This document shows positions 5,052 to 25,680 of a stretch of DNA of 39,874 nt, piece after piece; the stretch's first letter is position 1, and every line of letters begins with the position of its first letter. Made by a program: the position numbers and the translations under genes. The notes below the pieces were generated by a model. That model saw only the letters and a program-made list of their open reading frames with translations. It did not search any database and was not told the DNA's origin. Source of the stretch: Ignavibacteriales bacterium (GTDB lineage: Bacteria > Bacteroidota > Ignavibacteria > Ignavibacteriales > Ignavibacteriaceae); the NCBI GenBank assembly GCA_016182615.1, contig JACPGF010000082.1, positions 1 through 39,874 of the forward strand, given 5' to 3'.

Positions 5052-6842
5052 ATGGCTCAAAATAAAAATGATGATGAAGTAATCGGCAAAGCGTATGATG
5101 CAAAACTCATGCGGCGCTTGCTGCATTATGTAAAACCCTATAAAAAATACGTGGTTCTGGCAATTGTGCTTAACATAATAGTTGCGGCACTTGGCCCTTT
5201 GCGGCCGTACTTAACCAAAATAGCGGTCGATGACCACATTGTCCACAAAAACTATAACGGTTTATTGTGGATTGTACTGGCAATGCTTGCAACGCTTATT
5301 TTCCAGTCCGTTATGCAGTATTTTTTAACCTATTACACGCAGTATCTTGGGCAGCGCACCATACTTGACCTGCGGCGTGAACTGTTTGCACACACGCAAA
5401 AACTTGCAGCCCGTTTTTTTGATAAAACACCCATAGGACGGTTAGTTACCCGTGTAACCAACGATGTTGAATCACTAAATGAATTGTTCTCTTCGGGCAT
5501 CATCATGGTATTCAGTGATGTCTTCATTGTTCTTTGGATACTTGCCTTTATGTTTTACATGGATTGGCAGCTATCCTTGGTTACCCTCTCGGTTATGCCC
5601 GTGTTGATATATGGTACATTTCTTTTCCGCACTAAGGTCAGGGAAGCATTCCGTGATGTCCGCCTGCATCTTGCCCGGCTTAACTCGTTCATGCAGGAAA
5701 ACGTTACGGGCATGTCGGTTGTGCAGATTTTTAATCGTGAAAAGAAAGAATTTAAAACCTTTTCAGGTATTAATGCCGACCACCGCAAAGCTAACATCGA
5801 TTCGATTTTTTACTACGCGGTTTTCTATCCCGGGGTTGAGTTGCTCAGCACGATTGCCATCGGCCTGATAATCTGGTATGGCGGCGGCGAGATTATTCAA
5901 AGCCGCATGCAGCTTGGCGTTTTGTTCGCGTTTTTACAATACACCGAAATGTTCTTCCGTCCCATCCGTGACTTATCGGAAAAATATAACATCATGCAAA
6001 CCGCGATGGCTTCGTCCGAGCGCATATTTAAGCTGCTTGATGACGGCACCATGATAAAGAATCCGGAAAACCCGGTACCAATGGGAAAATTGCAGGGTGA
6101 TATAGAATTTAAAAATGTCTATTTTGCGTATAATGAAAACGATTTTGTCCTGAAAAATATTTCGTTCGGCATTAAACCCGGTCAAACTATCGCTATTGTT
6201 GGTGCAACCGGTGCCGGAAAATCGAGCATTATTAATATACTGACCCGTTTTTACGACATTGGCAACGGCAGTATTACTGTCGATGGTGTTGATATCAGGA
6301 ACATTGATAAAAAAGAACTGCGCGAGCATATTTCCATTGTGCTGCAGGATGTATTTCTCTTTTCAGGCAGTATCCGCTCGAATATTAGCATGAATAATCC
6401 GGCAATTTCCGATGAAAAAATTATCGAAGCTGCAACGCTGGTTGGTGCCGATAAGTTTATCAGGGAGCTGCCAAACAAATATGATGAAGAAGTGAAAGAA
6501 CGCGGTGCAACACTCAGCGTTGGGCAGAAGCAGCTTATTTCTTTCGCGCGTGCGCTGGCTTACGATCCGCAGATATTGATTCTTGATGAGGCTACCTCAA
6601 GCGTGGATACCGAGGCCGAGCAAATGATACAGCGGGCAATTGAGCAATTACTGAAAGGCCGTACTGCAATCGTTATCGCGCACAGGCTTTCTACAATTCA
6701 GAATGCCAATACGATAATAGTGCTGCATAAAGGTGAGATAAAAGAAATGGGAAATCATCAGGAGCTGCTTGCAATGCGCGGCATTTATTACCGCTTGTAT
6801 CAATTGCAATATAAAGATCAGGAAGCGGTAAAAAACGTGTAA
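5052..6842 (+). CDS. ABC exporter half-transporter, MdlB-like subunit with altered signature motif
   Basis: 596 residues with an N-terminal exporter membrane domain (about 30-330) and a nucleotide-binding domain. Motifs are Walker A GATGAGKSS (about 383), Q-loop VLQDVF, signature LSVGQKQL (about 487), Walker B ILILDEATSSVD with the catalytic Glu intact (about 509), and switch AHRLST. The Gly-to-Val change in LSGGQ is the same as in MdlB. In a heterodimer with the product of the 1979 gene, the two altered motifs fall in the same composite ATP site, leaving one site canonical. This pairing is strong support for the two proteins forming one exporter although another gene lies between them. The ATG has no clear ribosome site. 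Transported substrate unknown. Confidence 0.93.
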   Translation: MAQNKNDDEVIGKAYDAKLMRRLLHYVKPYKKYVVLAIVLNIIVAALGPLRPYLTKIAVDDHIVHKNYNGLLWIVLAMLATLIFQSVMQYFLTYYTQYLGQRTILDLRRELFAHTQKLAARFFDKTPIGRLVTRVTNDVESLNELFSSGIIMVFSDVFIVLWILAFMFYMDWQLSLVTLSVMPVLIYGTFLFRTKVREAFRDVRLHLARLNSFMQENVTGMSVVQIFNREKKEFKTFSGINADHRKANIDSIFYYAVFYPGVELLSTIAIGLIIWYGGGEIIQSRMQLGVLFAFLQYTEMFFRPIRDLSEKYNIMQTAMASSERIFKLLDDGTMIKNPENPVPMGKLQGDIEFKNVYFAYNENDFVLKNISFGIKPGQTIAIVGATGAGKSSIINILTRFYDIGNGSITVDGVDIRNIDKKELREHISIVLQDVFLFSGSIRSNISMNNPAISDEKIIEAATLVGADKFIRELPNKYDEEVKERGATLSVGQKQLISFARALAYDPQILILDEATSSVDTEAEQMIQRAIEQLLKGRTAIVIAHRLSTIQNANTIIVLHKGEIKEMGNHQELLAMRGIYYRLYQLQYKDQEAVKNV

Positions 6843-6919
6843 AGCCAACAACTTATGTAAATTAAAGTCGCGTTTATGTGTTTAACTCAAATTAGATGTT
6901 TCAGAAGTATAGCAAAATT

Positions 6920-7007
6920 TTTATCACCTAACCTCAGACTTTCACGAAGTGATGGATATCCATAGTCTGAGGTTTAAACAGTCAACAAACCACAGGCTTT
7001 AGCCATT
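6920..7007 (-). repeat. REP-like modular unit U1 (inverted relative to U2)
   Basis: Read on the minus strand it runs TGGCTAAAGCC, spacer, CCTCAGACT...AGTCTGAGG hairpin, then tail GGTTAGGTGAT. Within the hairpin are a perfect ATGGATATCCAT palindrome and a TCACTTCGTGA arm, so the single strand can form a three-way junction. It is nearly the exact reverse complement of U2. Confidence 0.8.
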
Positions 7008-7039
7008 AAGTTTTGCTTTTGAAGTTCAAATCAATTTCC

Positions 7040-7127
7040 AGTGGCTAAAGCCTGTGCTTTTATTTGTTGGGATTCCTCAGACTATGGGTATCCATCACTT
7101 CGTGAAAGTCTGAGGTTAGGAGATGGA
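7040..7127 (+). repeat. REP-like modular unit U2
   Basis: AGTGGCTAAAGCCTG, spacer, CCTCAGACT (7075-7083), inner arms, AGTCTGAGG (7107-7115), tail GGTTAGGAGAT. Together with U1 it forms an inverted pair of about 200 bp with a 33-nt centre, placed after the ABC exporter gene and before the fbp leader. It may also stop transcription from the upstream gene. Confidence 0.8.
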
Positions 7128-7166
7128 AATTTTTATAGAGATATGCTAAGTAGTTACTAATGCAGA

Positions 7167-24767: not shown

Positions 24768-24926
24768 CGAATACTTCCCAATAATTAAACTACCTCCCAA
24801 ACGAGCCCTTAATTACTTTTGATAAAACGAGCATTAACTCTTTTATTTTAATATATTAATAAAAACTGAGATAAGAAATACTCATAAACCATGATATTTT
24901 GATTTAAAATTTCAAATCATTGCACG

Positions 24927-25012
24927 GTGGCTAAAGCCAGTGGCTGGCTAGGTTGAGATTCCTCAGACTATGGGTATCCTTCACTTCGTAGCAGTCTGTA
25001 TTTAGGAGAAGT
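24927..25012 (+). repeat. REP-like modular unit U3 (partly degraded)
   Basis: GGTGGCTAAAGCC, spacer, CCTCAGACTATGGGTATCC, TTCACTTCGTA, GCAGTCTG and a TTTAGGAGAA tail. It matches U2 almost base for base up to the second hairpin arm, which is damaged. It lies about 70 bp left of the DnaA-box cluster. Confidence 0.75.
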
Positions 25013-25073
25013 AAATTTTTTGATATGAGCTGAGTGATTAAATTTTTTAAAAGCCTTAAGTAAGACTAAAAAG

Positions 25074-25330: not shown

Positions 25331-25510
25331 GTGGAAAACGGGGATAACCCAGTTTTGTATTTTTAACTGGTAAAGCACTCTTTCGGTACATATGAAAATC
25401 CGGTGGCATATCTGCAATTAAGCGAATCAGGCATTTGAACCACTCTAAGCAATGTATCCTTTTAATAAACCAAATTTTATAATGACAATGCTCTGTTTGC
25501 ACCATACAAT

Positions 25511-25577
25511 TAGTGGCTAAAGCCTGAGAATTGTGGAATGAAGCTACCCCAGGGTGAACTCTGGGGTTAGGGGATAT
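25511..25577 (+). repeat. REP-like modular unit U4 with a different hairpin
   Basis: TAGTGGCTAAAGCCTGA, spacer, hairpin ACCCCAG (25546-25552) / CTGGGGT (25561-25567), tail GGTTAGGGGATAT. It shares head and tail with U2 but not the hairpin sequence. It pairs with U5 in inverted orientation, with a separate CCGCTC-GCA-GAGCGG hairpin (25588-25602) between them. Confidence 0.75.
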
Positions 25578-25610
25578 TTAATATTACCCGCTCGCAGAGC
25601 GGTTGCTATT

Positions 25611-25680
25611 TATGCCCTAACCCCGGCATTCATGCCGGGGTGTCTTACACCACTGGGATTTTCAGGCTTTAGCCACTGAA
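25611..25680 (-). repeat. REP-like modular unit U5
   Basis: On the minus strand: AGTGGCTAAAGCCTGA, spacer, perfect 10-bp hairpin ACCCCGGCAT / ATGCCGGGGT (25620-25641), tail GGTTAGGGCAT. With U4 it forms an inverted pair about 170 bp long, right of oriC. CCCTAACCCC here also pairs with GGGGTTAGGG of U4. Confidence 0.75.

Follow-up and report, generated by a model that had tools for sequence, protein, structure and literature searches.

Two-part palindromic repeats in an Ignavibacteriales genome as probable ends of a subclass 1.2 Y1/HUH transposase, carried also by miniature inverted-repeat elements

Five related palindromic units (U1 to U5) are found at two loci of a 39,874-nucleotide contig (JACPGF010000082.1, positions 1 to 39,874; the window) from the genome of an Ignavibacteriales bacterium (GCA_016182615.1; here G000; 5.1 Mb in 489 contigs, 90% complete). 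Judged by their sequence, these units are probably bipartite repetitive extragenic palindromic (REP) elements of a subclass 1.2 Y1/HUH transposase, which have also hitchhiked inside miniature inverted-repeat transposable elements (MITEs) of the DDE type. A unit would comprise an inner "head" GGCTAAAGCC, next to the gene and potentially folding into a 3-bp stem and TAAA loop, followed by a spacer of about 20 nt and an outer hairpin with its foot (the "tail"), the last being the portion that resembles a classical REP. Two units facing inward would represent the ends of an autonomous element. The units fall into family A (U1 to U3) and family B (U4 and U5), which differ in their spacers as well as in their hairpins.

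The repeats are non-random. The assembly contains 93 copies of the 11-nt head TGGCTAAAGCC versus 8 of its reversed control, and in five head-to-head pairs, including U1/U2, the head starts are exactly 47 bp apart; the corresponding fixed distance in a relative, G004, is 29 bp. A covariance model (R1), built with a head stem and an outer stem from 18 type A and type B units, recovered at least 130 copies genome-wide at E ≤ 0.01, among them all five window units; this number is a lower bound because 150 of 1341 first-look candidates were scored. U1 to U3 were not part of the training set, whereas U4 and U5 were, and the matches of the latter two are therefore by construction. In the model alignment the outer stem stays paired through changes on both sides (covariation); the head is invariant and thus provides no information on its own pairing. 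The window units are intergenic, and an Rfam scan of the window gave no match.

The link to a transposase comes from a gene lying elsewhere in the assembly, which contains several Y1_Tnp genes. The C289 gene (L051:3425-3856), which encodes 143 amino acids with the motifs DHVH and YIKRQEQHH (Y1_Tnp, E 2.1e-25 in the genome search and 6.6e-26 for the protein alone), possesses a CCTCAGACT unit on both sides, the head facing the gene each time. The downstream unit is the long-loop version, as in U1 and U2, and the stop codon TAA of the gene is the TAA of the downstream head (CAA GGC TAA AGCC). A second C289-type gene, truncated, follows directly in tandem with an upstream unit of its own. Beside the remaining Y1 genes (C260, C34, C105) the hairpins are different. 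Heads-inward pairs without a gene are scattered through the genome. The initial annotation saw no HUH gene in the window, which is correct for the window and not for the genome. It had also considered that the copies might be few, their tail unshared and the genome devoid of a Y1 transposase; what is found is the copy number given above, a tail common to the copies within the genome, and the C289 gene between units of the same kind. At L038 (C189) and L085 (C105) there are Y1 transposase genes in decay, interrupted by several stop codons, as would be expected of past REP systems in this genome.

Relatives were searched with the C289 protein in 59 genomes, and the flanks of about 90 homologues were examined. 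Among the 20 members of one clade (support 100/96), 18 have the head (GGCTNNAGCC) no more than 200 nt from the gene, versus 1 of 69 others (Fisher 1e-15, kinship ignored); as a label on the tree the head requires 3 changes versus 17.4 for shuffled labels. The two head-less members, L104 and L106, form a long-branched pair. The layout within the clade is gene, head, spacer (mostly 17-28 nt), outer hairpin and tail. As read by eye, the two-hairpin plan recurs in the sister clades, where the inner hairpins are others (AACGGTTGAAACCGTT, AACCGTT...AACGGTT, GCCCTTTCAGGGC); in homologues further away, short hairpins stand singly, with a leader, for example ATAATATC.

When named GTDB genomes were scanned with the alignment of the clade, 80 loci emerged, mostly from Bacteroidota (Flavobacterium, Chryseobacterium, Runella, Emticicia, Algoriphagus, and others), together with Ignavibacteria and some metagenome bins of other phyla. 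The head is present at 68 of these loci, on both sides in 40, with a spacer mostly of 20-26 nt. Across Bacteroidota and their neighbours the head is constant, whereas the outer hairpin and the tail vary among genera (tails TTAGG, TTA, CAATTCA, CTAT): the Flavobacterium hairpin is CCTCCAGCTAAAGCTGGAGG with tail CAATTCA, that of Ignavibacteria CCCCACGATAAATCGTGGGG with tail TTA. A perfect stem of at least 7 bp occurs within 55 nt after 76 of 131 heads (dinucleotide shuffles: mean 2.6, maximum 7). Thus the constant head with a changing hairpin, as proposed in the initial annotation, generalizes far beyond the window, although the "exchange" of hairpins within the window represents two families and no swap; the constant tail, which had been taken as the key feature, does not hold among genera.

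The position of the head relative to the gene is also tightly constrained. The stop codon TAA lies inside the head at one fixed offset in 29 of 100 clade genes, so that the inner hairpin overlaps the coding end, and in many clade genes the upstream head starts 11-22 nt before the start codon, clustering at 15-20 nt. The latter position is suited to autoregulation. Heads exceed the reversed control in all 16 relatives with a clade gene (median 22.5 versus 5), whereas the 42 relatives lacking such a gene have a median of 7 heads versus 8 in the control (Mann-Whitney 1e-4, kinship not corrected). In G004 one core and head are combined with several hairpins (CCCCGCC, CCCCGGC, CCCCGAC).

The C289 protein scores 65.6 bits against the IS200/IS605 model NF033573, above its cut-off of 55, and 20.8 bits against the REP-associated tyrosine transposase (RAYT) model NF047646, far below the cut-off of 80. 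The clade profile matches solved IS200/IS605 transposases, the ISHp608 transposase (2a6m, 5e-13) first and 2xm3 at 5e-12, so that the TnpA fold and catalytic core (HUH, Tyr) can be assigned by homology. Y...Q..HH is present in nearly all homologues; at the place of the WQ motif of subclass 1.2, which most clade members have, the C289 protein has WA. Membership in class 2 TnpA_REP was rejected on the Y motif (Q for NP), the foot and the model score. The feet, read outward, are TTAGG, TTA, CAAT or CTAT, and not the GT[AG]G of canonical REP/RAYT systems. Subclass 1.2 TnpA_Y1 proteins are described as occurring at low copy number in Cyanobacteria and Bacteroidetes, without REPs (Quentin et al. 2018, PMC6006769). 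By motifs (DH[IV]H, Y---Q--HH), length (143 residues versus a median of 148), low copy number and occurrence in Bacteroidetes, the C289 protein matches that description, and we would place it in this subclass. Association with REPs, a described property and not a sequence criterion, is where the two part company: here heads flank 18/20 clade members and 68/80 named loci, as inverted two-hairpin ends that are also dispersed in the genome, which extends the description of subclass 1.2.

Within the window, sequence and model R1 recovered all five units where the initial annotation had placed them and in the orientation it gave, U1/U2 heads-inward, U4/U5 heads-outward and U3 single. U1 (6918-7010, minus strand; 66.7 bits) consists of the head at 6995-7005, the spacer, the long-loop CCTCAGACT hairpin at 6932-6972 and the tail GGTTAGGTGAT at 6923-6931. 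In U2 (7037-7129, plus strand; 62.8 bits) the head at 7042-7052 is followed by the spacer, the same long-loop hairpin at 7075-7115 and the tail GGTTAGGAGAT at 7116-7124; the apex carries a loop module GGGTATCCATCACTTCGTG (7086-7104, plus strand), which has a counterpart in U1 and U3. The span 6920-7127 of the initial annotation does hold U1 and U2, yet the element that contains them is longer, extending over approximately 319 bp from about 6839 to 7157. It is bounded by terminal inverted repeats (TIRs) of the GTAACTACTCAGCT family, of which the right one, GCTAAGTAGTTAC (7145-7157), is exact bar one base and the left one, aligned at 6839, is degenerate. U3 (24923-25041, plus strand; R1 match at 24923-25015, 31.6 bits) corresponds to the right-hand half of a type A element in decay: behind the head at 24928-24938 come a damaged hairpin (TATTTAGGAGA, lower stem broken) and a degenerate right TIR reaching about 25040, and the right arm and TIR align with the type A consensus. 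No left half of U3 was found. A module of about 20 nt, GGYATCCAYCMC plus a small hairpin, is seen in the window at 6940-6967, 7082-7106 and 24969-24990. GGYATCCAYCMC occurs 46 times in the genome versus none in the reversed control; the module is found in the loops of outer hairpins and, in some copies, inside the head (GGCTT[GGCATCCACCCCTTTGGGG]AAAGCC), and it looks like a very small repeat in its own right.

Alignment of 19 type A copies reveals conservation past the tails as far as the TIRs (GTAACTACTCAGCT...AGCTGAGTAGTTAC). The elements mostly measure 275-317 bp and have 14-bp TIRs, with 57 TIR ends in the genome versus 1 in the control. An 8-bp target site duplication (TSD), with at most one mismatch, borders 10 of 17 type A copies (mean 0.7 and maximum 5 in 10,000 shuffles). 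Ends in GTAA together with 8-bp duplications are a hallmark of IS66, and the element family that holds U1 and U2 has both. From the TIRs, and from the TSDs of the sister copies, it follows that a DDE enzyme most likely moved these copies. The common hairpin of U1 to U3 is explained by their being copies of one element and not by hairpin exchange. Solo TIRs in the genome have no clear partner transposase. In another relative, G013, the C-terminus of a DDE_Tnp_IS66 gene, cut by the contig start, ends 44 bp before an exact copy of a GTAACTACTCAGC-type TIR. This genome contains 116 exact 13-nt GTAACTACTCAGC ends, many at contig ends, which suggests an IS66-type element of high copy number and recent activity, its MITEs measuring 91, 200, 224 and about 270 bp. 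In the window genome, GTAACTACTCAGC-type ends also enclose other cargo, the REPs of the C34-type transposase; those in G013 enclose either a related set of REPs, or a head-type pair, or no REP whatever, and one REP-less copy of 200 bp has the perfect duplication TGTCACAC. Since the same TIR platform occurs without REPs or with those of another Y1 gene, the REP pair is a passenger. The likeness to IS66-type MITEs is in the GTAA...TTAC ends, the 8-bp target duplication and the TIR beside an IS66 DDE gene end in G013; the differences are the REP pair as cargo and the lack of an autonomous IS66 copy among the contigs of the window assembly.

The second locus has another architecture. U4 (25509-25580, plus strand; 77.4 bits) has its head at 25514-25524, the hairpin CCCCAGGGTGAACTCTGGGG at 25547-25566 and the tail GGTTAGGGGAT, and U5 (25607-25680, minus strand; 77.4 bits) has its head at 25665-25675, the hairpin CCCCGGCATTCATGCCGGGG at 25621-25640 and the tail GGTTAGGGCAT. 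Between the tails lies a central hairpin CCGCTCGCAGAGCGG (25588-25602; no strand assigned), which is kept in the type B consensus. The same heads-outward composite is present on contigs C313, C337 and C489. Type B units in general are tail-to-tail pairs around a central CCGCTC...GAGCGG hairpin, the conserved stretch stopping just outside the heads, and in this they resemble the tail-to-tail pairs of bacterial interspersed mosaic elements (BIMEs).

Other REP pairs occupy other MITEs. The type E and F pairs sit in an element with the ends GGT[TA]CAAGT[TC]CAAAATCGGTGGCA, and the G004 pairs in a third (GAGGCTGTGTGAAAATT), itself inserted at the apex of another REP hairpin; REP pairs are thus the cargo of several unrelated platforms. 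The possibility that the E/F core is a Y1 gene remnant was rejected, no such reading frame being found. Insertion-element ends AGAGGCTGTGTTAAAAC / GAGGCTGTGTGAAAATT are found at the apex in several types of REP hairpin, in the window genome at C42:177 (L005), C141:4178 (L088), C204:175 (L040), C333:20647 (L058), C361:17388 (L065) and C282:357 (L049), and in G004 at L296 and L297; an insertion sequence (IS) or MITE family seems to target hairpin tips. A second IS end, CATAGGCGTCAACTTAA, also interrupts REP hairpins (L282, contig C36 of the window genome; L294, contig C57 of G004), followed at L282 by a transposase-like reading frame. A gene between heads on C310 was considered as a passenger and rejected, for it is a DDE insertion sequence nested in a type A core; its DDE-like transposase, so named from sequence alone, has 546 residues (L053:1708-3348) and inverted repeats like TTTAACTGTCGAAG. 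Insertion of IS elements into REPs is known (Tobes & Pareja 2006, PMC1525189). The present cases are alike in that insertion at REP hairpin apices is repeated, and differ in that some of the inserted MITEs, in G004, carry another REP pair.

Several observations weigh against a bipartite REP system that is mobilized in part by MITEs. The window genome has a single intact gene of the head clade, and clade genes with hairpins of type B (U4/U5) or type C were not found in this incomplete assembly. The window copy of the MITE has no recognisable TSD, and no IS66 DDE gene was found in its own 489-contig, 90% complete assembly. Some relatives are rich in heads without a clade gene (G004: 68 versus 7 in the control), for which gene loss is possible. 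Furthermore, the core between the heads of type A pairs does not derive from the C289 gene by simple deletion; such a derivation of the type A pairs was rejected, as the core matches the gene ends poorly and TIRs and TSDs lie outside the tails.

Could the units be simply the internal parts of ordinary DDE-type MITEs, IS66-type and others, copies of which a Y1 gene picked up as flanks? U1/U2 and most type A pairs do have TIRs and TSDs, the MITE around the E/F pairs has different TIRs, and the G004 pairs lie in a third. Such an origin is nevertheless unlikely: the head accompanies a single Y1 clade through dozens of genera, its distances from the start and stop codons being tightly fixed, the ends of the C289 gene have no IS66-type TIR, and the TIR platform exists also without a REP (the 200-bp copy with its perfect TSD) or with the REPs of a different Y1 gene. 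The phylum-wide association with the gene, above all, strongly disfavours it. That the repeats persist because they serve as signals at the RNA level (as terminators, mRNA stabilisers or autoregulatory sites of the transposase), with dispersal a by-product, we regard as quite improbable. The window units are intergenic, and the placing of the head in the clade genes, in many of them 11-22 nt ahead of the start codon and in 29 of 100 over the stop codon, would suit autoregulation; yet the heads-inward and heads-outward pairs, the near-identical inner sequences and the MITE boundaries with TSDs all point to mobility, terminators do not need inverted pairs, and no Rfam family was matched.

The initial annotation itself had favoured a single HUH transposase, recognising the constant tail, as the mover of all five units, with hairpins swapped between them. 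Types A and B do have a tail in common, and a Y1 gene with cognate units exists, but this scheme is now very hard to sustain. U1 to U3 are copies of one MITE, whose 14-bp TIRs and 8-bp TSDs are found around the homologues of U1/U2; the spacer and outer boundaries, too, set type A apart from type B; and among genera it is the tails that vary and the head that does not.

In the favoured reading, units that are REPs of a Y1/HUH enzyme and in part MITE cargo, the transposase would bind the folded ends on single-stranded DNA, presumably on the lagging strand, and would nick at the foot, as IS200/IS605 TnpA and TnpA_REP do. The constant head may act as an additional docking or pairing element, and the outer hairpin would drift and diversify together with its own enzyme. 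The recent spread of type A was presumably the work of a DDE transposase that acted on the MITE in trans and took the REP pair along as a passenger, and U4/U5 would represent a second hairpin family arranged tail to tail, as in BIMEs. Speculatively, REP pairs may have entered MITEs when insertion sequences with a preference for REP hairpins landed on both sides of a pair.

A HUH transposase with cognate palindromes is a system of a kind already known. As in REP/RAYT systems (REPtrons) and REPINs (Nunvar 2010, PMC2817692; Bertels & Rainey 2011, PMC3116915), inverted palindromes flank a Y1 gene, gene-less inverted pairs are dispersed, and the repeats change together with the gene. In contrast to those systems, the units described here have no GTAG/GTGG foot, the Y motif is of the class 1 type (Q, not NP), and a second, constant hairpin, the head, lies between the REP-like hairpin and the gene. 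Di Nocera 2013 (PMC3733652) describes HH dimers with conserved spacers, small stem-loops at the spacer ends in some families (CGTC-3 of A. tumefaciens) and dimers inside other palindromic repeats (GTAG-15 of A. variabilis). In the passages concerned the spacer stem-loops are not tied to a transposase clade, whereas here the head marks a Y1 clade phylum-wide and the element that hosts it is bordered by TIRs and target duplications. What appears new is the two-part end with a constant inner hairpin in a subclass reported to be without REPs. Nothing was found in the literature on the head sequence, on REPs in Flavobacteria or Ignavibacteria, or on IS66 with REPs, although coverage was incomplete and novelty is not proven thereby.

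More broadly, and more tentatively, a phylum-wide group of subclass 1.2 enzymes may recognise a two-part end composed of a fixed, clade-specific inner hairpin (GGCTAAAGCC in the head clade, others in the sister clades) and a fast-evolving outer hairpin; specificity would then reside in two modules, one fixed and one diversifying, with the pairs repeatedly becoming cargo of unrelated DDE MITEs. This bears on target choice by REP-type HUH transposases and on the spread of REPs without visible transposition of the gene, and it would correct the published view of subclass 1.2 as a REP-less protein group. Dozens of enzymes that share one short inner hairpin and differ in their outer hairpins constitute natural replicates, and since many of them belong to culturable Flavobacterium, Chryseobacterium, Runella and Emticicia, the roles of the two modules are testable by swaps. 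Part of the dispersal of REPs in these genomes is probably hitchhiking inside cut-and-paste MITEs.
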